From Rhizobium sp. L43 (GTDB lineage Bacteria > Pseudomonadota > Alphaproteobacteria > Rhizobiales > Rhizobiaceae): 64,000 bases of DNA. Below, in pieces: positions 7,700 to 26,109 of the stretch. Below the pieces are notes generated by a model. It did no database searches, was not told the origin of the DNA, and saw only the letters and a program-made list of their open reading frames with translations. The position numbers and the translations under genes were made by a program. The stretch lies in assembly GCF_002531725.1 (NCBI RefSeq), contig NZ_NWSQ01000018.1:62001-126000 (forward strand). The letters run 5' to 3'. The stretch's first letter is position 1. The number at the start of each line of letters is the position of its first letter.

Positions 7700-8118
7700 C
7701 TGTCGGATTTAGGGAGCAGAGGGCCGGAGACAAGACGGACCGTGGAGTTCGCCCGAAAAGACGACATGCTTGCCCTAATGATTTTGTAGCAGGTGATGAC
7801 AGTATGTCGTTCACATGCGTCACATCGGGCCAATGTCTTACCCATGCCGGGCCGAATTCACCGGTTCGATTCCCATCAAGCCCGGCAGGTTGACGGTTGT
7901 CTCGGTCCGCACTTGCCCTCTCGCACGACAAAACCGCCCTCCGCCGGCAATGATCCGGCGGAGAACGATGAAGACCTCGATGCTGCGTGCAACCTGCTCG
8001 GGAGAGCCAGGCGCGGAGATTTTATCGGTTAAAAGATGACTAAAATAATCACCTTATGTTGACAAGGCCAATTTCGCTCCATAGGTTCCGCGCGCATCTG
8101 TGATGTAGGGACCAAGTG
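7700..8118. other. Intergenic region between diguanylate cyclase and TonB receptor
   Basis: About 420 bases between divergent genes. The right end holds the IRO box at 8037-8051 and the receptor ribosome-binding site. The left part must hold the cyclase promoter on the minus strand, but I see no clear -35/-10 pair. Short open frames here have no start signal or recognisable product. Confidence 0.5.
8037..8051. promoter_or_regulatory. IRO box (TGA-N9-TCA) upstream of the siderophore receptor
   Basis: The sequence TGACTAAAATAATCA matches TGA-N9-TCA exactly, the iron-responsive operator bound by RirA in Rhizobium. It lies 68 bases before the receptor ATG, where repression by RirA in iron-rich conditions would be expected. 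Confidence 0.75.
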
Positions 8119-10290
8119 ATGGCGCGTGTTTTTTTGAATGTTTCTAATAATCTACCGCGAATTTATAGAGATGGGCTATTTGCCACGACAGCGGTCGTTC
8201 TGATCGGCTTTGCGGCATCGCCGGCTTCCGCCCAGAGCGCCTCCACAGGCGACACCGCGACAGCGCTGGAACCGATCGTCATTCAAGGTGCAGCCTCTGA
8301 TAGCAAGACCGACCGGACGTCGGTTACGGCCAAGAACAGCGCGGGCGCGACCAAGATCAGCACGCCACTCGTCGAGACGCCGCGTTCGATCTCGGTCACC
8401 ACCGAGAAGGAAATCGAGCAGCGCGGCGCGCAGACGGTCATCGAGGCGGTGCGTTATACAGCCGGCGTGACGACAGGAACGAGCGGCTTCGATCCGCGTT
8501 TCGACCAGATCTATATTCGCGGCTACAACGCCACGACGGTCGGCGACTATCGTGACGGATTGCGCCAGCCCTATATCAATTACGGCATGTTCCGAACCGA
8601 TCCCTATCAACTGCAGCGCGTCGAGGTGATCAAGGGGCCGGTTTCCGTTCTCTATGGCTCGGGTTCGCCGGGCGGCCTCGTCAACAAGATCTCGAAGCTC
8701 CCGACCGAGGAGCCGATCCGCGAAGTCGATATCACCTACGGCACCAAGGATCGGGTGCAGGGGATGTTCGATTTCGGCGGACCGATCAGCGAAGGCAACG
8801 ACGATTTTCTTTATCGCATCGTCGGCCTTGCGCGGCGCGGCGATACCAATTTCGATATTGCCGACGACCGCTATTTCCTGGCGCCGTCCTTTACCTGGAA
8901 GCCGGACGAGGCCACGTCTCTGACGGTGTACGGTCTGGCGCAGTCCGACGAGACCGACGCCAATGTCGGCGCGATCACGACCTCGGACGGCAGGATCCTC
9001 GATCTCAGGCAGAGCGATCCCGACTATGACTACCAGAAGGTCAAGCAGCAGCAGGTCGGCTATCAGTTCGAGCACGAGTTCGACAACGGCCTGACGTTCC
9101 GGCAGAACCTGCGTTATTCGCATCTCGATCTGGAGGCCCGCTACCTCGGTGTTACCAGCTGGACCGGGACCGTCGCGCATCGCGGCACCAATGCGATCCG
9201 GGACGAAATGAACGTCTTCCAGGTCGACAATCAGCTCGAGGCGAAGTTCGATACAGGCCCTGTTGCCCACACGATGCTGTTCGGGCTCGACTACAGCAAT
9301 CTCGACTCGAGCTTTGGCTACGGCTTCGGAGCCGCCGATCCGGCCTTCGACTTCGATATCGCCAATCCGACCTATGGAGTCTCCGGCGCTACGCCGGACT
9401 ATAATTTCTTGGCTTCCAAAGCCGATATGCGGCAGGTCGGCATCTATGCCATGGACCAGATCGAGGTCGGAAACTGGCGTTTCAACCTCGGCGGCCGGCA
9501 GACATGGGTGAACCAGACGCGCGATTCGACCTTGCCCACGGTCAGCTCGGAGGATGTCGACAAGAATGCCTTCTCCGTCCAGGCCGGTGCGCTCTACCTC
9601 TTCGACAGCGGCATTGCGCCCTTCGTTTCTTACGCCACCTCTTTCGATCCAGTCACCAACCGGTCGGCCGCCAACACAATTCTTCCGCCGACGAAGGGTG
9701 AGCAATTCGAGGTCGGGGTGAAGTACCAGCCGCCCGGCTCCGATATCCTGCTGTCGGCCGTCGCCTATCACATCGTCGAGCAGAACAAGCCGAGGCTCGC
9801 CGATCCGCTGACCTTCGCCTACGATTCCCAGGGCGAGGTGACCGGAAAGGGCATCGAGCTCGAAGCCCGCGCGGCCATCGCCGACGGCCTCGATATCATC
9901 GCGGGCTACACCTACAACGACTCCGAAGTCACCGGGGGCAACAACGTCGGAAATACCCCGGCCGTCACCCCGACCCATATTGCGAGCCTGTGGACGAATT
10001 ACACCTTCCAGGAAGGCAATCCCTTCAACGGTCTGTCGGCTGGCGCCGGCGTGCGCTACATCGGCGAGACCTGGACGGATGTCGCCAATACCTCGAAGAA
10101 CGCTGCAAGTTTCTATGTCGATGCAGCCCTCTCCTATGATTTCGGGGCGGTCGACAAGAAATATGAAGGGCTGACGGCAGCCTTCAACATCCGCAACATC
10201 GCCGACGAGCGCGAAACAGTTTGCGAAGAAGGCTTCTGCTATCTCGGCCAGGGCCGCAACATGACCGGCACACTGAAGTATCGGTGGTAA
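8119..10290 (+). CDS. TonB-dependent ferric-siderophore outer-membrane receptor
   Basis: Outer-membrane receptor of 723 residues of the FhuA/FoxA hydroxamate-siderophore group. A signal peptide ends about ASPASAQS, followed by a TonB-box-like segment (LEPIVIQGA), a plug domain (about residues 75-180, with RGYNATTVGDYRDGLRQ and VEVIKGPVSVLYGSGSPGG) and a 22-strand barrel. It ends in ...LKYRW, the terminal aromatic residue needed for barrel assembly. No N-terminal signalling extension is present, so it is a transporter rather than a FecA-type sensor. ATG 8119 has AGGGA seven bases ahead; GTG 8116 is possible. The IRO box and location beside vbs and fhu genes suggest ferric vicibactin as ligand. 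Confidence 0.93.
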   Translation: MARVFLNVSNNLPRIYRDGLFATTAVVLIGFAASPASAQSASTGDTATALEPIVIQGAASDSKTDRTSVTAKNSAGATKISTPLVETPRSISVTTEKEIEQRGAQTVIEAVRYTAGVTTGTSGFDPRFDQIYIRGYNATTVGDYRDGLRQPYINYGMFRTDPYQLQRVEVIKGPVSVLYGSGSPGGLVNKISKLPTEEPIREVDITYGTKDRVQGMFDFGGPISEGNDDFLYRIVGLARRGDTNFDIADDRYFLAPSFTWKPDEATSLTVYGLAQSDETDANVGAITTSDGRILDLRQSDPDYDYQKVKQQQVGYQFEHEFDNGLTFRQNLRYSHLDLEARYLGVTSWTGTVAHRGTNAIRDEMNVFQVDNQLEAKFDTGPVAHTMLFGLDYSNLDSSFGYGFGAADPAFDFDIANPTYGVSGATPDYNFLASKADMRQVGIYAMDQIEVGNWRFNLGGRQTWVNQTRDSTLPTVSSEDVDKNAFSVQAGALYLFDSGIAPFVSYATSFDPVTNRSAANTILPPTKGEQFEVGVKYQPPGSDILLSAVAYHIVEQNKPRLADPLTFAYDSQGEVTGKGIELEARAAIADGLDIIAGYTYNDSEVTGGNNVGNTPAVTPTHIASLWTNYTFQEGNPFNGLSAGAGVRYIGETWTDVANTSKNAASFYVDAALSYDFGAVDKKYEGLTAAFNIRNIADERETVCEEGFCYLGQGRNMTGTLKYRW

Positions 10291-10308
10291 GCACGGCGGT
10301 TGAGATGA

Positions 10309-10336
10309 ACCAGGCCGTCGCCCTCGACGGCCTGGT
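10309..10336 (+). terminator. Strong hairpin after the receptor gene
   Basis: A perfect 11-bp stem (ACCAGGCCGTC pairing with GACGGCCTGGT) with a six-base loop begins 18 bases after the receptor stop. No T-run follows, so it may end transcription weakly or protect the mRNA 3' end. Confidence 0.5.
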
Positions 10337-10457: not shown

Positions 10458-11864
10458 TCATTTACGAGCGTGATCGCTACTTGATACTCCCGGAACGTTT
10501 CGCTCTCCGAGGTCCCAATAAAGCCCGGCCATCAACGCGAGTCCTTCACGCGCGATATCAATGGGCAGATGTTCGTTCGGCGCATGCTGAGAGCACCCCG
10601 GATATGAATGCGGTATCCACACGGTCGGAAGCTGCAGAGTTTCAGAGAAGGCATCATTCGGCAGAGAGGCGCCAAGGTTCGGCAGGATGGCCGGCTTTTT
10701 GCCTGTTGTACGGCCGATCGAGTCCACGACCCAGTTGACCCAAGGATGCTTGGGATCGAGCCGCGTGGCACGAAAGACCTCATCGCTCGGCTGCGCTATT
10801 TGAACCTGGGAAAAACCGTGCTGATCCAGGTGACGGCGCAGAGCCGGCAAGACATTTTCCACGTCAATACCGACGACGAACCGTAACTGACAGCGAGCCG
10901 AGGCTCTCGCAGGGATAGCCCCGACAGGCGTCCTCGGGTTTCCGGCCTCGAAGGCGAGTACAGCAAACGAACACCAGGCGAACAGCTTTTCCGCTGGCGT
11001 CAACCCAGGTTCGCCCCAGTTCGGATCAATCTGCGGGCCTTCGGCATCGCTCTCGATCTCACAATCGGCAAGAACGTGACGCACATTGTCGGGGATGCTC
11101 ACCGGGCGCCATTCCGGAACCAGAATCTTGCCGGAGGGCTCGGTGATACTGGCGATCGCATGGGCAAGCTGGATTGCAGGATCGGAGAGAAGACCGCCCC
11201 AGTTGCCCGAATGATAACCGCCCTTGCGCGCATCGATCCAGATGTCAAAGCTGATCGCGCCGCGTGATCCCAGAAAGACGGTCGGCCGTGCGGCGGAAAG
11301 TCGGGGACCATCCGAGGCGATCAGCACGTCGGCGCGGAATAATTCCTTATGCGCGTCAACGAGTGCGTGCAGGCCAGGAGAAATTCTTTCCTCCCCCATC
11401 TCGATCAGATACTTGGCATTGAATCCGAGCTTCCCGCGCGTCTCCAAGACGGCCCGGAGCGCGCCGATGTTGACGGTATGCTGACCTTTATTATCGGCGA
11501 CACCGCGACCGTACCACCTGCCATCCCGCTCGATGAGTCGCCAGGGCGAAAGACCGTCGGCCCATTTATTGTCGAGCCCTCGTATGACGTCGCCGTGGCC
11601 ATAACCCAGCACCGTCGGCCGAAGGGCGTCCTCGTGGCGCTCGACGTAAAGGAAAGGCCAGCCGTTTTGGGAAAGCTTGCGACATTGAAAGCCGAGGGCC
11701 TCAAAGGCGGGCGTCATCTCGCTGTCGAGATACTGATCGAGAACCGCTGCGCGATCAGGATTCTGACTCTCGGTCGGCATCGCGACACGTCGCGCCAGAT
11801 CCTTCCGAAAATCGCCGGAAGCGAAGTAAGACTCTGCTCTGGCAATAGCGGCGTCTCGGGTCAT
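10458..11864 (-). CDS. M20-family metallopeptidase/deacylase
   Basis: A zinc-dependent peptidase or amidohydrolase of 468 residues. The dinuclear-site residues are visible: GYGHGDV (His and Asp ligands), WYGRGVADNKGQ (bridging Asp), EMGEER (catalytic Glu pair) and a C-terminal QHAPNEH (last His ligand). The dimerisation domain lies in the middle third. There is no signal peptide, so it acts in the cytoplasm. It is encoded on the minus strand between the receptor and fhuB, with a separate start and no sign of belonging to the siderophore pathway. Its substrate is not predictable. Confidence 0.88.
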   Translation of the reverse strand: MTRDAAIARAESYFASGDFRKDLARRVAMPTESQNPDRAAVLDQYLDSEMTPAFEALGFQCRKLSQNGWPFLYVERHEDALRPTVLGYGHGDVIRGLDNKWADGLSPWRLIERDGRWYGRGVADNKGQHTVNIGALRAVLETRGKLGFNAKYLIEMGEERISPGLHALVDAHKELFRADVLIASDGPRLSAARPTVFLGSRGAISFDIWIDARKGGYHSGNWGGLLSDPAIQLAHAIASITEPSGKILVPEWRPVSIPDNVRHVLADCEIESDAEGPQIDPNWGEPGLTPAEKLFAWCSFAVLAFEAGNPRTPVGAIPARASARCQLRFVVGIDVENVLPALRRHLDQHGFSQVQIAQPSDEVFRATRLDPKHPWVNWVVDSIGRTTGKKPAILPNLGASLPNDAFSETLQLPTVWIPHSYPGCSQHAPNEHLPIDIAREGLALMAGLYWDLGERNVPGVSSSDHARK

Positions 11865-11968: not shown

Positions 11969-13933
11969 TCACGCCCGCCGGCGCAGAACGATCAGCAGCA
12001 TCGGCGCTCCGACCAGAGCCGAGATCAATCCGGCGGGAATCTGATAGGGAAAAGCGATCATCCGCCCCGTCCAGTCGGCAATGACCAGCAGGACCGCTCC
12101 AATCAGGGCGGCGGCGAGGAGCTGGGCGGAGGGGCGGCGAAGACCGAGCCCATGGGCAAGGTGCGGCGCCATCAATCCGACGAAGCTCAAAGGGCCGACG
12201 ACGAGCGTCGCCGCCGCCGTCATGATCGCGGAGAGCCCGAACAAAACAGCGCGTGCGGGAACGATCCTCAGGCCGAGTTCGCTCGCCGTCTCGGTTCCAA
12301 GCTGCAGCAGGGCAAGCCACCGGCTGGCGAGAAAGGCGGCGGCCAGGCAGGCGAGCGCAATCAGAAGGGCGCTTGCGGCCACCGCATTGTCGACGAAATA
12401 GGTCGAGCCCGCCATCCAGCGTATCAGCGCCAGGCCTCTCGGATCGCCGCTCGCGGCAAGGACGCCGATCCCGGCGTCGAGCATCGCGCCGAAGGCGATG
12501 CCGGCGAGCAGCACGCGGTTCGGGCCGCAGCCCGAACGGGCGCTCAAGAGGAAGATCAGCGTCAGCACCGCAAGGGCGCCCCCGCCGGCAAAGACAAGCT
12601 GGAGCGTCAGTCCCGGTGCAGCAAAGGCAAACATGGCGGCCGCAACACCGAGCGTTGCTCCGGCCGATACCCCAAGCACTTCGGGGCTCGCCATTTCGTT
12701 TCCGGTCAGCCGCTGCAGGATCAGCCCCGTCACGCCGAGCACGGTTCCGGCGCCGAATGCGGCGGCGACCCGCGGCAGCCGAAGCGGAAGGATTTCATCC
12801 CATGAGGCGGCCGGCAGCCATGCCCAGGCTCCGTCGGGTGCGCGGCCGAAGAAGATCGCGGCCATCGCCAAGGCAATGATGCAGGCGAGCAGAATGGCGA
12901 ATGATGCCGCTCTGCTGCCGGCTGCAGGCCGCGGCGACGTCACGCCGGGCAGCGTGCGCGAGGCCGTGGCGAGGCGCGGGAGCATGGCAATCAGGATCGG
13001 TCCGCCGAGCAGCGCGGTCACCGCCCCGGTCGGCACGAAGTCGCCGGGAGCAAGAAGCTTGATGGTCTGATCCGTCAGCAGGAGAAGGCCGGCGCCGGCA
13101 ACCGGCGACCAGATCAATTGGCTGATGATCCGCCTTGCGCCGGCCAGGCGAACGATCTGCGGGGCTACCAGCCCGATGAAGCCGATGACGCCGACGGCGC
13201 TGGTGACGAGGGCGCAGAGTGCGATGGCAATCGCCAGGATGAAACTCCGTGCCCATTTGACCGGCAGGCCAAGGCTCGTTGCGCCGGCATCGCCGAGCTG
13301 GCTCAGCGTCAACGGCCTTGTGGCCAGAAGGGCAAGCCCCGCCAGCAGCGCCACCTTCGGCAGCAGCGACGTCGGGATCGCCCAGCTTTGCTGCGACAGC
13401 GATCCGGCGCCCCAGATGAAAATTCCTGAGAGATATTGATCGTTCATCAGCACCAGAATGGCTGCCGCCGCCCCGCACCAGAGGCCGACGATCATGCCCG
13501 ACAGGATGAGAGAAAAGGGCGAGAAGCCGTGCCGGGCGCTGATCGAAAAAATGGCGAGGGCAGCAAGTGCACTTCCGCCGAGCGCGACGGCGTCCCGGCC
13601 CCATCCCGTCAGCGAGGGAACGGCGAGCATGACGGAAACCAGTGCCAGATTGGCGCCGGCCGAGACGCCGAGCGTCGTCGGCGAGGCCAGCGGATTGCGC
13701 AGCATCTGCTGCAGCATCGTCCCCGACAGTGCGAGGGCGGCGCCCGCGATCAGGGCGGTCGCCATGCGCGGAAGCGTGGAATAGAGGAGGAGAAGATGCT
13801 GCGCATCGTAACCGGCGGTCGCCTCCCGATGCGGCAGCGCCGGCAGGCGATCGAGGACGGCCAGGCCCAGGCCTGAAAACAGCAGCAGCGCCGCTAGTGC
13901 CGGCGCGCCGAAGCGGGAATATCGAGGCTTCAT
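11969..13933 (-). CDS. fhuB: Ferric-hydroxamate ABC transporter permease, fused two-domain type
   Basis: Inner-membrane permease of 654 residues made of two tandem FecCD-type halves (about 1-325 and 340-654), the layout of E. coli FhuB. Each half carries the family motif, such as GVSAGANLALVSVML and GVSAGATLGVAAAMFA, and a late GFIGLVAPQIVRL or SFVGLMAPHLAHGL segment. Around 18-20 helices are expected. It overlaps the fhuD stop by one base (ATGA), so translation is coupled. It should import the ferric siderophore delivered by FhuD. The matching ATPase FhuC is not encoded in this window. Confidence 0.93.
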   Translation of the reverse strand: MKPRYSRFGAPALAALLLFSGLGLAVLDRLPALPHREATAGYDAQHLLLLYSTLPRMATALIAGAALALSGTMLQQMLRNPLASPTTLGVSAGANLALVSVMLAVPSLTGWGRDAVALGGSALAALAIFSISARHGFSPFSLILSGMIVGLWCGAAAAILVLMNDQYLSGIFIWGAGSLSQQSWAIPTSLLPKVALLAGLALLATRPLTLSQLGDAGATSLGLPVKWARSFILAIAIALCALVTSAVGVIGFIGLVAPQIVRLAGARRIISQLIWSPVAGAGLLLLTDQTIKLLAPGDFVPTGAVTALLGGPILIAMLPRLATASRTLPGVTSPRPAAGSRAASFAILLACIIALAMAAIFFGRAPDGAWAWLPAASWDEILPLRLPRVAAAFGAGTVLGVTGLILQRLTGNEMASPEVLGVSAGATLGVAAAMFAFAAPGLTLQLVFAGGGALAVLTLIFLLSARSGCGPNRVLLAGIAFGAMLDAGIGVLAASGDPRGLALIRWMAGSTYFVDNAVAASALLIALACLAAAFLASRWLALLQLGTETASELGLRIVPARAVLFGLSAIMTAAATLVVGPLSFVGLMAPHLAHGLGLRRPSAQLLAAALIGAVLLVIADWTGRMIAFPYQIPAGLISALVGAPMLLIVLRRRA

Positions 13934-14838
13934 CAGGCGGCAGTCTCCAGAACATCGACCATCAAGGTCGAAAAGCGCAGCGCCTCCTGGACCATTCCAA
14001 ACATCAGGACGCCTGGGACGACCGAGATCCGCTGCCGCCGGACGAAGGGAAGGCTGGTCCAGAGCGGGCTTTCGGAAAGCCGGGTCAGGACATCGGGCGG
14101 AAGCAACGGCGACACGACGACGAGGTGGGCCTCTTCATCGAGTTCGGCGAGCTGTTCCAGGCCGACCGTCTGAAATCCCCAGTAGCTGGCCTCGCCTTTC
14201 CAGGCATTCTCAAGGCCGATGCGTCGCATGGCGCCGCCGTAAAGGCCGGGGCCGCCATAGATGCGCGCATGCCTGATGTCGACGAAGTTGATGACGGCGA
14301 CCGGAGGCACCGACAGGCTCTTCACCCGCTCGCGCAGCCGGCCGAACGTGGTGTCGGCGCGGGAGAGAAATGCTTCCGCTTCCTGCTGTCGCCCGATCAT
14401 GGCGCCGAGACGCCGCGTTTCGGCGTAGGAGCGCTCGAGCGCCTCGCCACCCCTAGCATAGATGGTGAAGGTCTCCACAGGCGCGATGCGGGAGAGCTTT
14501 TCATCCATCGCCGCAAGGAAAGGCGTGCTGAGGATGAGCGATGGCCGGATGCTGGTGAGGACTTCGAGATTGATCTCCGCCGTGGTGCCGATATCGACGA
14601 CGCCTTGCGGCATGGTCGGCTCGACAACCCATTCCGACCAGTTCCGCAGCGAGGCGATCGCACGCGGCACGCTGCCGAGCGCCAGCATCGTCGATGCCAA
14701 TCCGTAATCGAGCGAAACGACGCCGCCATCCCCGGCGCGCGCGATGGCGGGTGCCGCGGCGCGCGCGACGGCGGGTGTGCCCGCCGTTGCCAGCGCGCCC
14801 AGAAGAAAATCCCGTCGTCTCAAGGCGCGGTCTCGCAT
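13933..14838 (-). CDS. fhuD: Ferric-hydroxamate ABC transporter substrate-binding protein
   Basis: Periplasmic binding protein of 301 residues, FhuD/helical-backbone class. ATG 14838 was chosen because GGGGGA stands just before it and it opens with a twin-arginine signal (RRRDFLLGALA) cleaved near AAAPAIARA; a start at 14877 is possible but lengthens the signal without benefit. The ligand-binding halves contain VVSLDYGLASTMLALG and, later, GLEQLAELDEEAHLVVVSP. A Tat signal means export after folding, as seen for some FhuD proteins. It overlaps the acetyltransferase gene by 19 bases and fhuB by one base, forming one operon. Confidence 0.9.
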   Translation of the reverse strand: MRDRALRRRDFLLGALATAGTPAVARAAAPAIARAGDGGVVSLDYGLASTMLALGSVPRAIASLRNWSEWVVEPTMPQGVVDIGTTAEINLEVLTSIRPSLILSTPFLAAMDEKLSRIAPVETFTIYARGGEALERSYAETRRLGAMIGRQQEAEAFLSRADTTFGRLRERVKSLSVPPVAVINFVDIRHARIYGGPGLYGGAMRRIGLENAWKGEASYWGFQTVGLEQLAELDEEAHLVVVSPLLPPDVLTRLSESPLWTSLPFVRRQRISVVPGVLMFGMVQEALRFSTLMVDVLETAA

Positions 14839-15323
14839 AGCTGTCCCCCGGCGAGCGGCTTGACCATGAACAGACACGGATGATCCTCGTGCCAGAGCGT
14901 GGCAAAGACCTCCGCCCTGACGAAGCCGTTCCGGTCGTAGAATCGCCGCGTTGCCTCGAATTGCGGCTCGTCGCGGTCACGCGGGGCGAGCGTTTTGACC
15001 GTCAGCAGCCGGGCGCCCGATTGATGGCCGAAGCGTTCGGCCTCGTCGAGCAGATGGCGTCCGGCGCCGCGACCGTGATATTCGGGGCGCGTCGCAATCA
15101 GTGCGATTTCGACGGCGCCGGGTAGATGCGGCTTCAACGCCATCAACGCCGTCACGACATCCGCCTCGACATAGCCGAACACCGGCAGATCTTCGACTGC
15201 CGCGGCACTCGCTTCAATGACCTCCGGTTCTGAAAACCAGTCGGGCAAAGCCCCCATGATCGAGCGGCAGAGCTCCGCCTTGCCTGTCAGGATCTCGACT
15301 GTTCTTCCCATTTTTTCTCGCAT
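14820..15323 (-). CDS. GNAT-family N-acetyltransferase
   Basis: A 167-residue protein with a GNAT acetyl-CoA fold. Residues about 75-120 contain VEIALIATRPEYHGRGAGRHLLDEAE, the RGxG/A pyrophosphate-binding loop, and the C-terminal part RRFYDRNGFVRAEVF is typical of the last GNAT strand and helix. It is the first gene of an operon with fhuD and fhuB, where other rhizobia have the ATPase gene fhuC. Vicibactin synthesis needs an N2-acetylation step (VbsC), and no other candidate is in the window, so this enzyme is a possible but unproven substitute. The start may be at 15323 or 15311. Confidence 0.8.
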   Translation of the reverse strand: MREKMGRTVEILTGKAELCRSIMGALPDWFSEPEVIEASAAAVEDLPVFGYVEADVVTALMALKPHLPGAVEIALIATRPEYHGRGAGRHLLDEAERFGHQSGARLLTVKTLAPRDRDEPQFEATRRFYDRNGFVRAEVFATLWHEDHPCLFMVKPLAGGQLCETAP

Positions 15324-15343: not shown

Positions 15344-15358
15344 TGACTCCTGTTATCA
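15344..15358. promoter_or_regulatory. IRO box (TGA-N9-TCA) between rpoI and the acetyltransferase-fhuDB operon
   Basis: TGACTCCTGTTATCA matches TGA-N9-TCA exactly. It lies 21 bases upstream of the minus-strand acetyltransferase start and 119 bases upstream of rpoI, so RirA bound here could repress both siderophore uptake and, through rpoI, siderophore synthesis. Confidence 0.75.
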
Positions 15359-17235: not shown

Positions 17236-18654
17236 TCACGGGCAAAAGCGGGGGTAGGGACGGATGGAGGCCAGGCGGTCGGCCGAGCGCTGCCGGAGTG
17301 CATTGAGCGCCCTCACCAGGCAGACGGCCGACAGCAGGCCGGTCAGGGCAGAGGCCAGAAACATTGCCGCCAGCAAGCCCGAAAAGCCGAAGAACGGCGG
17401 CAGAAGAGCCAGCAGAGGAAAGAGAAGATAGCCATTCTGCGCCAGACCGATGGCAACCGCCGCTTTCGGCCTGCCCTGCGCCTGGAAGAGGACCAGCAGC
17501 GTTTGCCGCAGGCCGAACAGCAGAAAGGGAAGATGGGTCGCGACGATCGCCTGGCTTGCGACCGAAAGCACGGCCTGATCCTTGGTGAAGAACGAGGCGA
17601 GATGTTCGGAAAAGCCGAGTGCGACCAGTCCGTAAGCGCCGCCGACCGCGCTGGTGACCACTGTCAGGATGCGGACTGCCGACAGCACCCGGGCCACATC
17701 CCCGCTGCCCCAGGCGAAGCTCAGAATGGACTGGGCCCCGAGTGAAAGGCCGATAACCGGAAGTGTTCCGACAGCGAGCAGCCGCAAGGCAATCCCGACG
17801 CCGGGAATGCCGGCTTCTCCATGATAGGTGCCGGCGAGCGACAGCATGGCCGCAATCGCGCCCGCCGTTGCGAGACTGGTCAGCGTCGTCGGCGCGCCCA
17901 CCGCAAGAACCGGTCTGAGGCCGCCGATATCTCTCAACCGCCAGCCAAGCGTCAGCCGAACCGTCCCCAGGCGCCTGGCGTGGTAAGCGCCGTAGATGGA
18001 AAGTGCGACGAGCTGGGACAGGATGGTCGCGATTGCCACGCCCTGCAGGCCGAGGCCGAATCCGAAGATCATGATCGGGTCGAGGATCATGTTCAGCGCG
18101 AAGCAGGCGACCAGCGTCCACATGCTGAAGCGGGCATTGCCCTCGGCGATCGCCAGGAAATCGAGAATGATCTGCGCCATCGTCAGCGGGATCGAGACCG
18201 CGATGATGAGGAGATAATGCTGCGCCAGCGGCTCGATGGCGGGCGTGGCGCCGAACAGCAGGAAAGAGGGGAAGGCAACGATTGCGACGGCGCTTGCCGC
18301 GCCGAAGGCGACGCCCGCGGCAAGGCTGACCGAGGCAAGCGTGCCGGCCCTTGACCGGTTGCCGGCACCGAGCGCGCGGCCGACCTCGGTTGCCACGCCG
18401 ACGCCGATGCCCTCGCCGAAGGCCGCGACGAGCATCAGGATAGGCAGCACGATCATGATCGCGGCGATCTGGTCCTCGCCGATCATGCCGACGAAGACCA
18501 TGTTGATCGTGTGATGCGCGGCATTGATCGACAGGCCGAACATGGCCGGCAGCCCGAGCCGCAGCAGCAGCCGGAAAAGCTGCGGACTGGCAAGATCTTC
18601 CGGAGCAAGCCGCCGTTTCCGAAGCCTGCCGCTCATCTCACTCATGTCGTTCAT
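17236..18654 (-). CDS. vbsD: MATE-family efflux protein, probable siderophore exporter
   Basis: A 472-residue inner-membrane protein with about 12 helices in two MATE (NorM/DinF) halves. The family is recognisable from GLPAMFGLSINAAHHTINMVFVGMIGEDQIAA near the start and from the repeated motif LSLGAQSILSFAWGSGD near residue 290. MATE proteins exchange sodium ions or protons for organic compounds. It sits between the acyltransferase and PLP genes, overlapping the former by four bases (ATGA), in the place of vbsD. The likely job is secretion of newly made siderophore, which is inferred from position. Confidence 0.85.
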   Translation of the reverse strand: MNDMSEMSGRLRKRRLAPEDLASPQLFRLLLRLGLPAMFGLSINAAHHTINMVFVGMIGEDQIAAIMIVLPILMLVAAFGEGIGVGVATEVGRALGAGNRSRAGTLASVSLAAGVAFGAASAVAIVAFPSFLLFGATPAIEPLAQHYLLIIAVSIPLTMAQIILDFLAIAEGNARFSMWTLVACFALNMILDPIMIFGFGLGLQGVAIATILSQLVALSIYGAYHARRLGTVRLTLGWRLRDIGGLRPVLAVGAPTTLTSLATAGAIAAMLSLAGTYHGEAGIPGVGIALRLLAVGTLPVIGLSLGAQSILSFAWGSGDVARVLSAVRILTVVTSAVGGAYGLVALGFSEHLASFFTKDQAVLSVASQAIVATHLPFLLFGLRQTLLVLFQAQGRPKAAVAIGLAQNGYLLFPLLALLPPFFGFSGLLAAMFLASALTGLLSAVCLVRALNALRQRSADRLASIRPYPRFCP

Positions 18655-19640
18655 GATGCGGGCACCCAGAGATGGTCGCCGAAGAAACGCTCACGGGTCA
18701 GCATCACCAGCAGCGCCCGCTTATGCGGAAAGTCGAAATGCTTGACCTTCGCAAAGCCGGAGCGATCGAGATTGCGGATCTGCTGCTCGTGGCTGGCGCG
18801 CGGCTCGCCGACGATGCGCCTGGTGCGGGGATCGTCGAGGAAGATGAAATGCATCAGCGAGGGTAGCCATGCGCTGATCCATTTCTTGCCGCGATAGCCG
18901 GGCTCACCGATTGCGACATGCCAGCCGCGATCATAATCGTCGGCGTCGTAGAAGGGACCGAGCCGGTTTTCCTTGGCCCAGTAGACCTCGAAATAGCCGA
19001 AGGGGATGTCTGCGAAACTGCCGATCAGCGGCAGGACATGCGGATCGGCGATCCTTTCCTGCAGCATCTCCCGGTGCTTGTCGAGCGAGCCCGCATCCTC
19101 CCAGATCGTGTTGACCTGCTCATCGTTCATCCAGCGATGAAAGGCGGCAAGATCGGTCTCCGGGTCGGCGACCCTGAAGGCGATATCCCGTTCGAGCCAC
19201 GGGATGAACCGCTGGTAGACCGTGCCTTTCGGCTTTGCCGGCCGGCGCGGATGGTAGCGCCCCGCGGTCATCTCCGGCACGGGCGGCAGCGGATAGGAAA
19301 GCTGCGGCAGCCACAGCGACGGCCATTGCCAGAGGATCGCGGAATCGAGCCTTCCGTCGATGCCCGTGATGTGCCGGGGAAGGCTTGTCTGATGCCCCTC
19401 GAAGGCGACCGACGTGATCGAGCGATCTTGCGCCGTCACCGCTTCGGCAGCGGCCATGAGAAGCTCGGCCGATTGCACGGGATTGCCCTCATAGAAGGTC
19501 AGCGAGGCGATGCCGGCTTCGACTTCGAGGGCGACTCCGTGATTCCCGTGCGTGGTGTTGAGATGGACGAGATTAGGGGCAAGCCTGACATAGCTGCGCG
19601 CCTGCAGAGCCCGCCTTTGTTTGGCGGCGTCGAAATCCAT
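18651..19640 (-). CDS. vbsA: Hydroxyornithine acyltransferase, IucB-like
   Basis: A 329-residue acyltransferase. The C-terminal half (about 165-325) is the IucB/RhbD-type GNAT domain, seen in FHRWMNDEQVNTIWED, GYFEVYWAKENRLGPFYDADDYDRG and WLPSLMHFIFLDDPRTRRIVGEPR. In vicibactin synthesis, VbsA transfers (R)-3-hydroxybutyrate from CoA to the N5-hydroxyl-amine of ornithine, creating the hydroxamate. ATG 19640 was chosen because AAGGAG stands eight bases before it; the frame is open further upstream without such a site. It heads the vbsADL operon behind an RpoI-type promoter at 19715-19738. Confidence 0.88.
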   Translation of the reverse strand: MDFDAAKQRRALQARSYVRLAPNLVHLNTTHGNHGVALEVEAGIASLTFYEGNPVQSAELLMAAAEAVTAQDRSITSVAFEGHQTSLPRHITGIDGRLDSAILWQWPSLWLPQLSYPLPPVPEMTAGRYHPRRPAKPKGTVYQRFIPWLERDIAFRVADPETDLAAFHRWMNDEQVNTIWEDAGSLDKHREMLQERIADPHVLPLIGSFADIPFGYFEVYWAKENRLGPFYDADDYDRGWHVAIGEPGYRGKKWISAWLPSLMHFIFLDDPRTRRIVGEPRASHEQQIRNLDRSGFAKVKHFDFPHKRALLVMLTRERFFGDHLWVPAS

Positions 19641-19714
19641 GATGTTTCTCCTTGATCGGTAGGGTTTTGATGCTGCGAGCATGAAGCCCGCTCCTGCGCC
19701 GATTTGGTAGAATG

Positions 19715-19738
19715 ACGATCCATCCTTGGCGGGATTTA
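19715..19738 (-). promoter_or_regulatory. Predicted RpoI promoter for vbsADL
   Basis: On the minus strand TAAAT and CGT are separated by exactly 16 bases, the layout of the iron-starvation box recognised by PvdS-type sigma factors. The -10 side continues as CGTCATT, identical to the divergent vbsG promoter. It would start transcription about 65 bases before vbsA. Confidence 0.65.
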
Positions 19739-19773
19739 GGGTTGGGAAAAGAAAAAAATTCTCAACAATTTTC

Positions 19774-19797
19774 TAAACTGGGGCTGGCGGGATCCGT
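19774..19797 (+). promoter_or_regulatory. Predicted RpoI promoter for vbsGSO
   Basis: TAAAC and CGT are separated by 16 bases, mirroring the vbsADL promoter on the opposite strand, with the same CGTCATT on the -10 side. The predicted start lies about 30 bases before vbsG. Confidence 0.65.
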
Positions 19798-19834
19798 CAT
19801 TTGCGCATGACGTCAATCACGGCAGGAGCCTTCA

Positions 19835-20053
19835 ATGGATAATCTCGAGCCCGGCGACGATCTCTGGATCGTCGTCTACGACACCGAGCATCACTACTCG
19901 GTCTGGCCGCAGGACAAGCGGATTCCGGTGAGCTGGCAGCCCGCGGGCTTTGCCGGTTCGCGCCAGGAATGCCTGGCGCATATCCGCGACGTCTGGGCCG
20001 ATCCGCGCCCGCTCTCCCTCCGCTCGGCAATATCAAGCGACGCCCGTCTCTAA
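19835..20053 (+). CDS. vbsG: MbtH-like NRPS accessory protein
   Basis: A 72-residue MbtH-like protein, full length for the family. The conserved pattern is present: HHYSVWPQDKRIPVSW, GFAGSRQECLAHIRDVWADPRPLSLR, including the tryptophans that pack on the adenylation domain. MbtH-like proteins bind NRPS adenylation domains and help them fold or activate. AGGAG lies seven bases before the ATG. It is the first gene of vbsGSO and ends 16 bases before the NRPS gene, its obvious partner. Confidence 0.93.
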   Translation: MDNLEPGDDLWIVVYDTEHHYSVWPQDKRIPVSWQPAGFAGSRQECLAHIRDVWADPRPLSLRSAISSDARL

Positions 20054-20069
20054 ACATCCGGATGGCAAG

Positions 20070-23000
20070 ATGAACAAGCAGATCACCAATTTCGCCGACG
20101 CCCGCCCGACCGATGCGGCAGTGGACACAGTCTTCGAGAGCTTTCCGCTGACGATCGCGCAGAAGCGCATCTGGTCGCTGGAGCAGATCGGCAATTACAC
20201 GGTCTTTCCCGACCAGATCATCGGGCTGCGATTGAGCGCCACGATCGACGCTGAGACGATTGCCGGCGCCTGCCGCGGGCTGGTGGCTGAAAATCCGTCG
20301 CTCACCACTCGTTTCCGCCGGCTGGCGGGCGGCCGCATCGAGCAATATCGCGGCGCGTCGAACGCCGTGCCGATCGAGCTCCTCGGAAAAGAGGGAGCCG
20401 CTCTTTCAGAGGCTGATGCCTTGGCCGCGCGGAAAGCCTTCCGCGACAGGCGCTTCGATCTCCTGGAACGGCCGGGGGCGCGCATCCAGATCATCCAGCT
20501 GGCCGATGGGCAGTCGCTGCTGACGATCGTGCTGCATCCGATCATCTCAGACGACCGCGAAAAATCCGTTCTTGCCGGTTTCCTGGCGCGAATTCTCGAC
20601 GGCGAACCCGCCGGCAACATGCAGCCGGCGGAGATCTCGGCTGGAACGCGGGAGGAAGAATGGCTGGAGACGGATGAGGCGCGGGAAGCGCTTGCCTATT
20701 GGCGTGACACGATCGGTCTCGACTATGCGGCCTCGACTTTTCCCACCCGCTTCAACAGCGGCGGGCTTGCAGGCGTGGCGCGCGCCGAGCATCGGTTCGC
20801 CATCGCGCCCGACCTCTGGAGCAAGCTCGAACGGCATGCGGGGAGCAAGGGATTTCAGGTCGAGCGTGTACTGCACGCCGCCTTCTGCGCGCTGCTGGCG
20901 CGCTACGGCGGCAATTATGCTTTGCTGACCGGCCTGCTGGTCGCACGGCCGCGCACGGAGCATTTCGCCAGCCGCGGCCGCGCCGAACAGATCCTTCCGC
21001 TCGTCCTGCCGCTCGCCTCCCGACATTCTCTCGATGACGTCGTCGCGGCGATCTCCTCGGTGACGGGGGAGGGGCTTCGCCGGCTCGTGCCGCTGGAGCG
21101 CATCACGCAGGAACTGGTCGTCGACGAGGCGGCCGCACAGGAAGCCGTGGTCAAGGCGCTGTTCGAATTCCGCGAACCCTATCCGGTCGCGAGAGATGCT
21201 GGGAATCTGGAGCCACTAGGCCCACGCGCCGACAGCGAGCTTTCCCTGGTGATCGAGGCGCATCCCGATGGGAGCGCATCCGGGCTGATCGACTATGCCC
21301 AGGATCTTTACGACGGCGCCCTGATCGCCCGTGTCGCCAGGCATTTCGGCCTGGCGCTTGAGCAGATCGTCGCGCAGCCGGGCCTCCGGATCGAGGACAT
21401 CGAACTTGTCGGCAGCGACGAACTCGACTGGTTGTCCGCCCCCTACGAGGATGACGTCGTCAATGACAACCGGCCGGTCCACGAGCTGATATCGGCCCAT
21501 TCGCGCCGGACGCCTGAGAAGACGGCGATCGTCTATGGCGACGAGGAATGGAGCCATGGCTGGCTGGAGGCAAGCACCAACCGCCTCGGGCATCGGCTGC
21601 GGCAGCTCGGCGTTCGCGCCGAGGTGACGGTCGCGATCTTCATCAAGCGTTCGCCGGAGGCGATCGTCGGCATCCTCGCCACGCTGAAGGCGGGCGGCGC
21701 CTATATTCCCGTCGAGCCCGATCATCCGCCGGTGCGCAACCATCACATCCTGCGCGATGGCGGCGTCAAGATCGTTCTCACCCACAGCTGGCTGCGCCAT
21801 CGCCTGCCGGAAGAGCTCGACGCCGTTATCCTCGAACTCGACAAGCTCGATCTCGACGGCGAGCCTGAAACGCCGCTCTATGTCCCCATCCACAAGGATC
21901 AGCTCGCCTATGTCATGTACACCTCGGGATCAACGGGATTGCCGAAGGGGGTCGCCGTCGAGCACGGCCCGCTGACGCATCATCTGCAGAATACCTCGCG
22001 CGTCTACGGCATGAGCTCGGAATCCCGCGAATTGCCGTTCCTGCCCTTCAGTTCGGACGGTGGCCATGAGCGGTGGATGAACGCGCTGATGGAAGGCGGC
22101 AGCATCATCCTTCCAGACCAGCCGCTGTGGACGCCGGAAGAGACGCTGACGGCGATGCGCAAGCACGGTGCCAACAATGCCAGCATTCCCACAACCTATC
22201 TGCAGCAGCTGGCGGAATGGGCCGACATGTCAGATGGGGCGCCGCCGATGCGGCTTTATTCCTTCGGCGGCGAAGGGCTGGCGCAACCGACCTTCGATCT
22301 TCTGTCGCGGGCGCTGAAATCGGAATGGCTGATCAACGGCTACGGTCCCACAGAAACCATCATGACGCCGATGGTCTGGAAGGTCAGGGCCGGCACGAAG
22401 TTCCAGGGGGTCTATGCTCCGCTCGGCCGCGCCGTCGGGGCAAGGCGCGTCTATGTGCTCGATCCCGATCTCAATCCGTGCCCGATCGGCGTGACCGGCG
22501 AGCTTTATATCGGCGGCGAGGGCATCGCCCGCGGTTATCTCGGCAAGCCGGATACAACCGCCGACCGCTTCATCCCCGACCCATTCTCGACGGAGGGCGG
22601 CCGGCTTTACCGCTCCGGCGACCTGACGCGTTGGCGCGAGGACGGAACCGTCGAATTCGTCGGCCGTGTCGATCATCAGGTGAAGCTGCGCGGTTACCGC
22701 ATCGAACTCGGCGAGATCGAAGCGGCGCTCCTGCAGCAGCCCGGCGTCGGCGAAGCCCTGGTCGTGCTGCGCGATGACGATGGCGGCGAAAAGGCGCTCG
22801 TCGCCTATGTCGTTCCGAAGAAGGATGAGATGCTTGAGGTCGAGACGGTCCGCGCCGGCCTCGAACGCAGCCTGCCCTCCTATATGGTGCCGGCGGCGGT
22901 GGTCGAACTGGAAAAGATGCCGACCAATCCGAACAGCAAGCTCGACCGCTTCGCGCTGCCGGCGCCGCAACCGGTCAAGCGTGAAATCGTCGTGCCGGCG

Positions 23001-24062
23001 ACCACACTCGAAGAAGAGGTGCTGGATGTCTGGCGCCAGGTTCTCAAGCTGGAGGCGATCAGCGTCGAGGATAATTTCTTCGCGATCGGCGGCAATTCGC
23101 TGGGCGCGATCCGCATCCTTTCCCTGCTGCGGCAGCGCCGGCCGAAGGTGCCGCTCACCGTCGCCGATATCTTCAACAACCCGACCATCCGCGCCTTTGC
23201 CGGCGTGATGGAGCAGGGGGCGGAACGGGATCTCTCCGAGGTGATCGTGCTGCGCGCTTCCGGCGCCAAGCCGCGGCTCTATTGCTTCCCCGGGCTTCTC
23301 GTCAGCACCCGCGAATATGTGAAGCTCGTCGATTATCTCGGTGCCGATCAGCCGGCGACCGGCTTCATTTGCCACTCGCTGTCCGAGAAGAAGCAAGTCG
23401 GCGCGCCGGTCGAAGAGATCGTCGAGAGCTATGCCGACTATATCAGGACGCACAGCAGGGGCGCGCCCTGCACTTTCCTCGGCTGGTCCTGGGGCGGACT
23501 TCTGGCCTATGAGGCTGCCCGCACGCTGGGCAACGAGGTCGATGTCAGGATGATGGCGATGGTCGATGTGTGCGACCTCGGATCGGAATTTGCGATCGGC
23601 GCCAAGCCGCGCTTCCGGCCGGGCGAACGCGACATGCTTCACCGGGACGTGCAGGCTTGGCTGCAAAAGACGGCGATGCGCCCGGAATGGGACCGGCTGC
23701 TGTCGACGATGGACGCCGATACCTACGATCAGTTCCTGCGCTTCGTCGCCGACGAAAAGGACCCGCTTCCCACAGATGGGCCCGATATCAGCAGCCGCGA
23801 GCATACGTTCTGGGTGCTGATCGACAATGCGCTGATCTTCCGCAAGCACCGGCTCGTTCCCCACGATGTGCCGATCTATCCCTGGGCGGCCGACGACAGC
23901 CTCAACCGTGGCCTCAACCTGATCGATTGGCGCCGCCTGTCGCCGCGGGCGTATGCGGCCGAAGTCATCACCGGCACCAACCACCTGCACATGATCGGGT
24001 CTCCCGCCTTCCACTCAAGGCTTGCCCTGCGTCTCAAGGAAACAGAGAAGGATTTCGCATGA
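20070..24062 (+). CDS. vbsS: Four-domain non-ribosomal peptide synthetase (C-A-T-TE)
   Basis: A 1330-residue cytoplasmic NRPS. A condensation-type domain covers about 20-450, adenylation about 465-975 (YVMYTSGSTGLPKG near 615, YRSGDLTRW near 848, NSKLDR near 955), a carrier domain with GGNSL (pantetheine serine S1010) and a thioesterase with GWSWG (nucleophile S1140). VbsS activates the acylated hydroxyornithine, and the thioesterase trimerises and cyclises it to the trilactone. The condensation motif HHxxxDG reads H156-P-I-I-S-D-D, lacking the catalytic second histidine and the glycine. By hand alignment to PheA the pocket residues are about D,G,E,S,Y,F,G,M,T,K. The start has GGATGG upstream. 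The stop overlaps vbsO (ATGA). Confidence 0.95.
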   Translation: MNKQITNFADARPTDAAVDTVFESFPLTIAQKRIWSLEQIGNYTVFPDQIIGLRLSATIDAETIAGACRGLVAENPSLTTRFRRLAGGRIEQYRGASNAVPIELLGKEGAALSEADALAARKAFRDRRFDLLERPGARIQIIQLADGQSLLTIVLHPIISDDREKSVLAGFLARILDGEPAGNMQPAEISAGTREEEWLETDEAREALAYWRDTIGLDYAASTFPTRFNSGGLAGVARAEHRFAIAPDLWSKLERHAGSKGFQVERVLHAAFCALLARYGGNYALLTGLLVARPRTEHFASRGRAEQILPLVLPLASRHSLDDVVAAISSVTGEGLRRLVPLERITQELVVDEAAAQEAVVKALFEFREPYPVARDAGNLEPLGPRADSELSLVIEAHPDGSASGLIDYAQDLYDGALIARVARHFGLALEQIVAQPGLRIEDIELVGSDELDWLSAPYEDDVVNDNRPVHELISAHSRRTPEKTAIVYGDEEWSHGWLEASTNRLGHRLRQLGVRAEVTVAIFIKRSPEAIVGILATLKAGGAYIPVEPDHPPVRNHHILRDGGVKIVLTHSWLRHRLPEELDAVILELDKLDLDGEPETPLYVPIHKDQLAYVMYTSGSTGLPKGVAVEHGPLTHHLQNTSRVYGMSSESRELPFLPFSSDGGHERWMNALMEGGSIILPDQPLWTPEETLTAMRKHGANNASIPTTYLQQLAEWADMSDGAPPMRLYSFGGEGLAQPTFDLLSRALKSEWLINGYGPTETIMTPMVWKVRAGTKFQGVYAPLGRAVGARRVYVLDPDLNPCPIGVTGELYIGGEGIARGYLGKPDTTADRFIPDPFSTEGGRLYRSGDLTRWREDGTVEFVGRVDHQVKLRGYRIELGEIEAALLQQPGVGEALVVLRDDDGGEKALVAYVVPKKDEMLEVETVRAGLERSLPSYMVPAAVVELEKMPTNPNSKLDRFALPAPQPVKREIVVPATTLEEEVLDVWRQVLKLEAISVEDNFFAIGGNSLGAIRILSLLRQRRPKVPLTVADIFNNPTIRAFAGVMEQGAERDLSEVIVLRASGAKPRLYCFPGLLVSTREYVKLVDYLGADQPATGFICHSLSEKKQVGAPVEEIVESYADYIRTHSRGAPCTFLGWSWGGLLAYEAARTLGNEVDVRMMAMVDVCDLGSEFAIGAKPRFRPGERDMLHRDVQAWLQKTAMRPEWDRLLSTMDADTYDQFLRFVADEKDPLPTDGPDISSREHTFWVLIDNALIFRKHRLVPHDVPIYPWAADDSLNRGLNLIDWRRLSPRAYAAEVITGTNHLHMIGSPAFHSRLALRLKETEKDFA

Positions 24063-25417
24063 CCGTCGCTTTTACCCGCAGGGATGCCCTCCACGAGTCG
24101 CTCGATCTTGCCGGTATCGGCATCGGCCCCTCCAATCTGAGCCTTGCCTGCCTGCTGGAATCGGTGCCTGAGGTTCGCAGCCGCTTCTTCGAGCGGCGCG
24201 GCGCCTTCGACTGGCATCCCGGCATGATGATGCCCGGCGTCGAGCTGCAATCGTCCTTCCTGAAAGACCTCGTCACCCCGGTCCTGCCGACCAGCCGCTG
24301 GTCGTTCGTCTCCTATCTGGTCGCCCATAAGAGGCTCTACGCTTTCCTGAACGCCAATTACGACGCCGTTCCCCGGCAGGAATTTGCACGCTATCTCGCC
24401 TGGGTCGCCAAGGGCGTGGAGGATTTGCGTTTTGGAACGGATATTCGCGACGTCGAACACCGCGACGACCGCTTCGTCCTGCGCTTCGACAATGGCCAGG
24501 AAGAAGCGCGGAACCTGGCGATCGGCACGGGATCTTCGCCCTTCGTGCCCGACTGGGCAAAACCGTTTCTGGGCGCCGATTGCTTTCACAACAGCGAGGC
24601 CAAGTCGCGTCTCGCCGATCTCGGTGCTGCCCGCATCGTCGTGGTCGGCGGCGGCCAGAGCGGCGGCGAAGTGGTCGAAGCGCTGCTTGGGAATCCCAGT
24701 TCAATGACGGAACTGACCTGGATCAGCCGGCGTCACAATTTCGAGCCGATCAACGATACGCCGTTTTCGAACCAGGTCTTTTCACCGGAATACGTGCAGG
24801 CCTATCTGAAGCTCGGCGGCGAGCAAAAGCAGGCCGCTTTGAAGAACTCGATCCTGACCAGCGACGGCCTGTCGATTTCGACGATCCATTCGATCTACCG
24901 TCGCCTCTATGCCTTGCGTTATCTCGAGCCGAGCATGCTCAATGCATCTCTGGCGCCCAATCGCGACGTGATCCAGATGGAGCGGAACGGCAATGCCTAT
25001 CGGCTCATCGTCAGGAATCAATTCGATGGCGGCATCGAGGTGCTCCACGCCGATGCGGTGGTTCTGGCAACCGGCTACCGATTCCGCTTGCCGGATGCTT
25101 TGGGCTCGCTGGGTGAACGGATAACGCTCGACAGAAACGGCTATCCCATCCTCAACGACGATTACACGATGCAATGGACAGGCCCGAGGGCAAACCGGCT
25201 GCTTGCGCAGAATGCCGGCCGATATTCGCATGGCATCGCCGACTCTCAGCTCAGCCTGATGGCCTGGCGGAGCGCAATGATCGTCAATACGCTGCTTGGC
25301 CGGCAGCATTTCGACGCGGAACCGGACAATGCGCAATTGGCCTGGGCGAGCGAGACCGCTTCGGCAATGCCGCATCAGCTCCGCGCCGGCTATTCGGACG
25401 GCATGCTGTCGTCCTGA
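24059..25417 (+). CDS. vbsO: L-ornithine N5-monooxygenase (lysine/ornithine hydroxylase family)
   Basis: A 452-residue flavoprotein of the PvdA/IucD class that hydroxylates the side-chain amine of ornithine using FAD, NADPH and O2, the first committed step to a hydroxamate. FAD binding is shown by GIGIGPSNLSLA (residues 19-30), NADPH binding by VVVGGGQSGGE (194-204) and the family ATGYRF at 336-341. Its ATG overlaps the NRPS stop, giving coupled translation in vbsGSO. Ornithine rather than lysine is chosen because of the vicibactin-type setting. The 3' end overlaps the convergent PPTase gene by 28 bases. Confidence 0.92.
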   Translation: MTVAFTRRDALHESLDLAGIGIGPSNLSLACLLESVPEVRSRFFERRGAFDWHPGMMMPGVELQSSFLKDLVTPVLPTSRWSFVSYLVAHKRLYAFLNANYDAVPRQEFARYLAWVAKGVEDLRFGTDIRDVEHRDDRFVLRFDNGQEEARNLAIGTGSSPFVPDWAKPFLGADCFHNSEAKSRLADLGAARIVVVGGGQSGGEVVEALLGNPSSMTELTWISRRHNFEPINDTPFSNQVFSPEYVQAYLKLGGEQKQAALKNSILTSDGLSISTIHSIYRRLYALRYLEPSMLNASLAPNRDVIQMERNGNAYRLIVRNQFDGGIEVLHADAVVLATGYRFRLPDALGSLGERITLDRNGYPILNDDYTMQWTGPRANRLLAQNAGRYSHGIADSQLSLMAWRSAMIVNTLLGRQHFDAEPDNAQLAWASETASAMPHQLRAGYSDGMLSS

Positions 25418-26109
25418 AACATACGCGTGGAAATGCCGGGCAACCCGGATTGGCAACAGGCAGCCAGCGCAACGACATGCTGGCTGCCGCTTTGGATCAG
25501 ACGATGATGCCATCGCCGATCACGATCGCTGCCGTCGATCATCACAGGGATGCCGTCCTTCCAGGAAAAAACGACATTGCGAGGATCCTCGCGCAGCCCG
25601 ACGCCGAGGGCCTTCAAATGGCTCTCCTTGAGCGTCCAGAGCGCGACAGCCGCCCGCGCGCGTTCGCGGGCAGGCAATTCTGCGAGCCGGCGCCGTTCGT
25701 CTGCGCTGCAATAGCTAGCCACCGCCGCCTCTTCGATCTCGGCGTCGGCGCGTTCGCAGTCTATTCCGAGGTGATCACATCCTGACGCGACAGCGACCGC
25801 CACCAGCCCGTCGGCATTGGCGAGGCTGAATTGTGGGATATCACGCCCCTCCATCTTCAGCTTGCCGTGCTTGTCCGGAGACAACAGAACCTTGCTCGGC
25901 GATACCCCGCTATGCACGCTCAATAGCCGCCGCAAGAGATAGCGGCCGGCAACGAACGAAGCCCGATCTCGCTCAAACCGGTAGGTCGCTGCGCGCTCCC
26001 GTTCATCCGCTGAAAGTGACTGCATCCAGCGGTTCCAGTCGCGTTCGTTCTTGGAGTAATGCCAGAGGGCGATTTCAATGCCGGCAGGTTGGTTTTCTGA
26101 TTGCTGCAT
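25390..26109 (-). CDS. vbsP: 4'-phosphopantetheinyl transferase, Sfp type
   Basis: A 239-residue Sfp-type transferase that moves phosphopantetheine from CoA to the carrier-domain serine (S1010) of the NRPS. The magnesium-binding GIDCERAD gives D117 and E119, and WTLKESHLKALGVGL gives K161, E162 and K166. It is transcribed toward vbsO from its own promoter, as for vbsP in R. leguminosarum, where it is not iron- or RpoI-regulated. I see no IRO box or RpoI-type promoter in front of it, which agrees. Confidence 0.92.
   Translation of the reverse strand: MQQSENQPAGIEIALWHYSKNERDWNRWMQSLSADERERAATYRFERDRASFVAGRYLLRRLLSVHSGVSPSKVLLSPDKHGKLKMEGRDIPQFSLANADGLVAVAVASGCDHLGIDCERADAEIEEAAVASYCSADERRRLAELPARERARAAVALWTLKESHLKALGVGLREDPRNVVFSWKDGIPVMIDGSDRDRRWHHRLIQSGSQHVVALAACCQSGLPGISTRMFQDDSMPSE

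Follow-up and report, generated by a model that had tools for sequence, protein, structure and literature searches.

A probable vicibactin cluster in Rhizobium sp. L43 with vbsC in place, the transporter ATPase gene on another contig and an altered condensation motif in VbsS

The window analysed here is a stretch of 64,000 nucleotides from Rhizobium sp. L43 (positions 62001-126000 of contig C8 in genome G000; 7.12 Mb, 99 contigs), and its subject is an island of vbs genes, spanning 8037 to 26109, that is predicted to direct synthesis of the siderophore vicibactin. The genes with Pfam matches extend from 8116 to 26109, while position 8037, at which the initial annotation had placed the start of the island, is the first base of a box of the iron-responsive operator (IRO) type. 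The genes are as follows, with percentages giving protein identity to the counterparts in R. etli CIAT 652 unless another strain is named.

8116-10290, plus strand: TonB-dependent siderophore receptor gene, fhuA-type (PF00593, PF07715; 87% to fhuA)
10458-11864, minus strand: M20 family peptidase gene (PF01546), in the place of R. etli fhuF-araC-sdr
11969-13933, minus strand: fhuB, permease of the FecCD type (PF01032 twice; NF007866 over its cut-off; 89%)
13933-14877, minus strand: fhuD, periplasmic binding protein (PF01497; 91% over 265 residues; start uncertain)
14820-15323, minus strand: vbsC, N-acetyltransferase, a small GNAT protein (PF13508, PF00583; 88% to vbsC over 161 residues)
15477-16136, plus strand: rpoI, extracytoplasmic function (ECF) sigma factor (PF08281; 92%)
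16027-17214, minus strand: vbsL, pyridoxal phosphate (PLP) enzyme, epimerase of the Cys/Met-metabolism PLP family (PF01053; 94%)
17236-18654, minus strand: vbsD, MATE exporter (PF01554; 88%)
18651-19682, minus strand: vbsA, hydroxyornithine acyltransferase, Acetyltransf_8 GNAT (PF13523; 88%)
19835-20053, plus strand: vbsG, MbtH-like protein (PF03621; 86%)
20070-24062, plus strand: vbsS, non-ribosomal peptide synthetase (NRPS) with condensation (C), adenylation (A), peptidyl carrier protein (PCP) and thioesterase (TE) domains (Pfam Condensation, AMP-binding, PP-binding, Thioesterase; 93% over the full length)
24059-25417, plus strand: vbsO, ornithine N-monooxygenase, Lys_Orn_oxgnase (PF13434; 92%)
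25390-26109, minus strand: vbsP, phosphopantetheinyl transferase, ACPS (PF01648; 68%; 85% to R. johnstonii 3841)

The locus is very probably a Rhizobium vicibactin cluster, with synthesis, regulation, export and uptake arranged as proposed below, and this reading of the sequence is well supported, because the genes are close to annotated vbs genes and share their order. On plasmid pC of CIAT 652 the counterparts are annotated vbsG, S, O, A, D, L, P, rpoI, fhuA, fhuD and fhuB and stand in identical order, the NRPS record reading 'vbsS: vicibactin biosynthesis non-ribosomal peptide synthase', and protein identities lie at 86-94% across the cluster with the exception of VbsP. The initial annotation had proposed a vicibactin-type island that brings together genes for synthesis, a sigma factor, export and uptake in the known vbs order, and this is borne out: the MbtH-like protein, NRPS, N-monooxygenase, acyltransferase, MATE exporter, PLP enzyme, phosphopantetheinyl transferase, ECF sigma factor, receptor, FhuD and FhuB are all present with Pfam matches, and the order agrees with both CIAT 652 plasmid pC and R. 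johnstonii 3841 plasmid pRL12. Low identity of VbsS, VbsA and VbsL to known Vbs proteins, which had been named as evidence that would speak against vicibactin, was not observed, the values being 93, 88 and 94% to CIAT 652 and 89, 87 and 95% to R. johnstonii 3841. In a plasmid collection VbsS matched 350 records, of which 145 cover 80% or more of the query at a single place; Rhizobium sp. BT04 matched best (96.4%), with CIAT 652 at 92.9% and R. etli CFN 42 at 91.8%, and many Rhizobium plasmid copies are 92-96% identical. A single-module C-A-PCP-TE enzyme close to annotated VbsS is found with homologues of VbsO, VbsA, VbsC, VbsD, VbsG and VbsP adjoining it, and an acyl-hydroxyornithine epimerase of the VbsL type is present as well. 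VbsL serves as the vicibactin marker in a metallophore-mining study (PMC12971057), and vicibactin production is reported for R. leguminosarum 3841 in PMC12815270. Gene identities, gene order, motifs and the place of fhuC are direct observations. An NRPS-independent route of the IucA/IucC type was discarded, the genome being without any PF04183 match.

The gene vbsC, said initially to be absent, is the small GNAT gene flanked by fhuD and the sigma factor gene, where the CIAT 652 counterpart is annotated 'vbsC, vicibactin acetylase'; the start of the latter maps to about 15311. Homologues (82-100% identical) occur in all 30 Rhizobium loci compared, namely the window, L018-L045 and L058. Clusters of the Phyllobacterium type (L046-L057, L059 and L060; VbsL 79-82% identical) gave no vbsC match in any of 14 stretches of about 21 kb each, so that their product may be a relative lacking acetyl groups, or acetylation may depend on an unrelated enzyme; they carry fhuB and fhuD, and fhuC was seen in the two that were checked (L046, L052). 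A second lineage of VbsS-like NRPS, about 47% identical to VbsS, occurs in 27 of 148 genomes of the genus, for instance at L176 (G004) and L177 (G031), and has homologues of vbsL, vbsA, vbsO, fhuC, fhuD, fhuB and the receptor gene adjoining the NRPS gene; L177 has a vbsC homologue (58%), and none was found in L176.

The acyl donor of VbsA is not fixed by its sequence, a form without acetyl groups (vicibactin 7101) has been described, and the Phyllobacterium stretches are without a recognisable vbsC, all of which would suit a vicibactin variant with another acyl group or incomplete N-acetylation. Such a product is nevertheless highly improbable here, given that vbsC is present and that strains annotated or reported as vicibactin makers have closely similar VbsA, VbsL and A-domain sequences.

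Absence of fhuC, the second gap noted initially, holds for the window, where the ATP-binding cassette (ABC) ATPases are only 24-30% identical to E. coli FhuC, and does not hold for the genome. One clear FhuC is encoded at 49768-50532 of contig C11 (58% to E. coli FhuC), among genes that look from their sequences like a sugar ABC transporter and a sugar kinase; the next-best match (42%) adjoins its own FecCD permease on contig C99. The Fhu-type uptake set is complete at the level of the genome, with receptor, FhuD and FhuB encoded in the window and FhuC on C11. In R. etli CFN 42 (G009) fhuC and fhuB are likewise on different contigs, and in R. leguminosarum Norway (G026) fhuC, fhuD and fhuB lie together and away from vbs; since such a split is common to relatives, it is not a defect of the locus.

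FhuB and FhuD (11969-14877) are 63-64% and 61-62% identical to those of the second lineage (L175), against 53% and 46% to R. leguminosarum FhuB and FhuD, while the unlinked FhuC shows the opposite trend (52-53% to the second lineage, 56% to R. leguminosarum). Because FhuB and FhuD are closer to the second lineage and FhuC is not, the transporter looks, as far as these sequences go, to have been assembled from different sources. The upstream part of the fhuD frame (13933-14877) also holds a twin-arginine-like signal, RRRDFLLG, which is excluded by the shorter start annotated in BT04.

Between the receptor gene and fhuB, R. etli has fhuF, an araC-type regulator gene and a short-chain dehydrogenase/reductase (SDR) gene, where the window has the M20 peptidase gene; neither this gene (10458-11864) nor the missing fhuF had been mentioned initially. 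Of the 30 Rhizobium loci, 21 carry a nearly whole fhuF and 2 a fragment, and none was found in the other 7; among these, L021 ends before the receptor, so that its lack of fhuF is not decisive. The M20 gene occupies the receptor-fhuB place in two, the window and BT04. In R. chutanense (L058) the gap between receptor gene and fhuB measures 348 bases and aligns with the window as far as 10425 and then from 11969 onwards, which leaves the M20-bearing stretch without a counterpart there. The genome gave no PF06276 match for FhuF in a search that was positive in 81 of the 148 genomes of the genus. Among the 41 genus genomes with a close VbsS (at least 89%), FhuF was not found in 12, G000 included, and the M20 gene adjoins vbs in two; in G084 and G102, M20 relatives lie on contigs separate from the one with vbsS.

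The M20 gene fills the gap where R. etli has fhuF, runs in the same direction as fhuB, belongs to a genome in which PF06276 gave no match, and is found in the same arrangement in BT04, and from this one might propose that the peptidase replaced a lost FhuF in iron release by cleaving the imported siderophore. We consider this very unlikely, since the M20 gene occupies that place in just 2 of the 12 genomes that combine a close VbsS with a lack of FhuF, close M20 relatives occur in genomes without a VbsS match (96% in G157), and two reductase-type PF08021 matches in G000 are alternative candidates. The M20 gene is probably a passenger. PF08021 (siderophore-interacting FAD protein) was in turn rejected as a general stand-in for FhuF: it is found in 10 of the 12 FhuF-less and 16 of the 29 FhuF-bearing genomes with close VbsS (Fisher p 0.15, relatedness ignored), and two of the 12, G081 and G017, have neither FhuF nor PF08021.

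Four putative control sites lie in the intergenic regions of the island:

8037-8051, no strand: IRO-type box TGA-N9-TCA before the receptor gene, a predicted binding site, conserved at its place in 27 of 27 loci
15344-15358, no strand: IRO-type box TGA-N9-TCA in the divergent vbsC/rpoI promoter region, conserved in 30 of 30 loci
19711-19738, minus strand: PvdS-like box TAAAT-N16-CGTCATT oriented towards vbsA, a putative promoter for RpoI, with a box of this type in 29 of 30 loci
19774-19801, plus strand: PvdS-like box TAAAC-N16-CGTCATT oriented towards vbsG, a putative promoter for RpoI, with a box of this type in 30 of 30 loci

By place and conservation these sites fit the published circuit of RirA with its IRO boxes and RpoI. 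The gene rpoI adjoins the vbs genes, and vbsGSO and vbsADL are both preceded by the conserved boxes of the vbsA-vbsG gap, which resemble the Pseudomonas PvdS box, TAAAT-N16/17-CGT. The exact pattern TAAAY-N16-CGTCATT occurs twice in the whole genome, both times in this gap, and with one mismatch 29 times against 10 for a reversed control pattern, although the pattern was derived from the window sequence and the genome count is therefore a non-independent test. RpoI is reported in PMC1557990 to serve adjacent vbs promoters, and a PvdS entry is among the best RpoI matches tabulated there. In all 15 bases the receptor box agrees with the R. leguminosarum fhuA IRO box used in RirA binding tests, and repression of vbsC by RirA is reported in the same study (PMC10510648). 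The PvdS-like box was not found in most of the Phyllobacterium-type and second-lineage loci, of which 16 were scanned with two matches, counted without regard to gene positions. The genes rpoI and vbsL are convergent and overlap by 110 bases (16027-16136), as they do in CIAT 652 (15970-16079 of L018), so that the DNA for the C-terminal part of RpoI also carries, on its other strand, the end of vbsL.

The condensation domain of VbsS departs from the canonical motif HHxxxDG at the following site:

20535-20555, plus strand: VbsS condensation motif HPIISDD in place of HHxxxDG (residues 156-162, from alignment with E. coli EntF, which has HHLLVDG)

The same departure runs through the family. From 60 VbsS-like sequences, removal of eight duplicates left 52 distinct proteins, including those of R. 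johnstonii 3841, Phyllobacterium and seven of the second Rhizobium lineage; L061 and L062 (distant PLP enzymes, no vbs matches) and L056 (no vbsS match) had been dropped. All 52 retain the first His and the Asp, while the second His is replaced by Pro in 45 and by Ala in 7 and no protein has the Gly. In structure prediction the fold is preserved, with moderate confidence (mean predicted local distance difference test score, pLDDT, 73.9). The model of the domain matched 283 PDB entries with E values of 0.001 or lower, with teixobactin C-A structures at the top and X-domains at ranks 3-4; by sequence, the best match (8xjz) places an intact lhHiisDG opposite HPIISDD in the HMMER alignment, and the second-best, 4tx2, is an X-domain with an altered motif. 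X-domains, known from glycopeptide NRPSs, carry HRxxxDD or HRxxxDE, are described as inactive for condensation and recruit P450 enzymes for peptide cross-linking, according to PMC11546977 and PMC6565677. The VbsS domain has in common with them the C fold and the changed second His and Gly; ordinary C domains match it as well as X-domains do or better, and it is not filed as an X-domain.

The altered motif seems to mean the loss of a catalytic residue, and from the motif alone we would conclude that the C domain does not do the joining; the ester trimerisation is then probably the work of the thioesterase. In the case of enterobactin, cyclotrimerisation can be carried out by the thioesterase alone. 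A rather unlikely alternative is that the C domain is still catalytic and forms the ester bonds in spite of its motif. Its fold is predicted to be kept, none of the 68 VbsS-like genes of the genus has an internal stop, and its ratio of nonsynonymous to synonymous substitution (dN/dS) lies well under 1; activity is moreover not always abolished when the second His is lost, an active HQxxxDM domain being described in a review (PMC11546977). Against this, the second His and the Gly at position 7 are both changed in all 52 distinct sequences, and these are the positions named as changed in inactive X-domains in PMC6565677.

Substitution rates do not help to separate the two cases, and were rejected as an argument for an inactive C domain. 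In VbsS the mean dN/dS was 0.193 for C, 0.057 for A, 0.132 for PCP and 0.104 for TE (against 10 loci hand-picked from 29), and in a control set of seven E. coli genes for EntF, whose motif is intact, the pooled pN/pS was 0.133, 0.057, 0.083 and 0.084, so that C is the fastest domain in both and only the motif distinguishes them. Of the 60 VbsS-like stretches, 59 are stop-free and that of L052 has one stop somewhere within it. A loss of the Asp that binds the alpha amine in the A domain, which would suit an acetylated substrate, was dropped as a candidate because the EntF alignment puts Asp in that column.

Returning to the thioesterase as the probable maker of the ester bonds, one may tentatively go further and picture the C domain as a non-catalytic, X-domain-like docking platform, kept under selection, for one or more of VbsC, VbsA and VbsL at the carrier protein, with the thioesterase alone making all three esters; taken as a whole, this proposal is doubtful. 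No remark on the altered motif was found in the literature covered on the vicibactin condensation domain and rhizobial vbsS, the key biosynthesis papers lying outside that coverage, and antiSMASH 8 flags C domains without catalytic residues (PMC12230676); we therefore claim no priority for the observation. Since no intact motif occurs in the 52 distinct proteins, the question of which domain trimerises the vicibactin unit is testable with one purified protein.

The biochemistry, regulation and product of the cluster would follow those of its known relatives, the enzyme steps of vicibactin being reportedly those of Carter et al. 2002 and Heemstra et al. 2009. Under low iron RirA would leave the IRO boxes before the receptor gene and between vbsC and rpoI, and RpoI would transcribe vbsGSO and vbsADL from the two divergent PvdS-like promoters. 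VbsO would hydroxylate ornithine, VbsA add the 3-hydroxybutyryl group, VbsL invert the alpha carbon and VbsC acetylate the alpha amine, after which the unit would be loaded by VbsS with its MbtH partner VbsG, once armed by VbsP. Three units would be ester-joined and the ring closed by the VbsS thioesterase, the product exported by VbsD, and ferric vicibactin taken up again through the receptor, FhuD and FhuB, powered by the FhuC encoded elsewhere in the genome.

Several observations weigh against this scheme. The bare TGA-N9-TCA is common, with 32 occurrences in the window against 13.6 expected, so that place and conservation carry the evidence for the IRO boxes; the short PvdS-like pattern, when one mismatch is allowed, turns up in the window no more often than by chance (2 times against 2.56 expected). 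With fhuC unlinked and FhuF not found in the genome, the scheme does not account for iron release. VbsP (25390-26109) is only 68% identical to CIAT 652. Unlike its neighbours it is closer to R. johnstonii 3841 (85%) and BT04 (88%), and because its identities depart in this way from those of the neighbouring genes, the sequences suggest an exchange at the vbsP edge of the cluster.

Overall, the vbs set is complete and conserved, and the system is a known one, new only as another copy. The main use of the present analysis is correct annotation: vbsC is present, no vbs gene is missing and the transporter ATPase is encoded on another contig. The clusters of R. etli CIAT 652 and CFN 42 have all the vbs genes, rpoI, the receptor gene, fhuB and fhuD in common with the window, in the same order and directions, and differ from it in having fhuF-araC-sdr instead of the M20 gene and nitrate-type ABC genes after vbsP. 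On pRL12 of R. johnstonii (leguminosarum) 3841 the vbs genes, rpoI and the receptor gene stand in the same order at 82-95% identity, but fhuF is present and there is no fhuB or fhuD within 10 kb flanks. The nearest copy found is that on plasmid pRspBT04f of Rhizobium sp. BT04, which covers 99% of window positions 6000-30000 at 94.4% DNA identity, M20 gene included, and differs from the window in the stretch compared by small sequence differences only.

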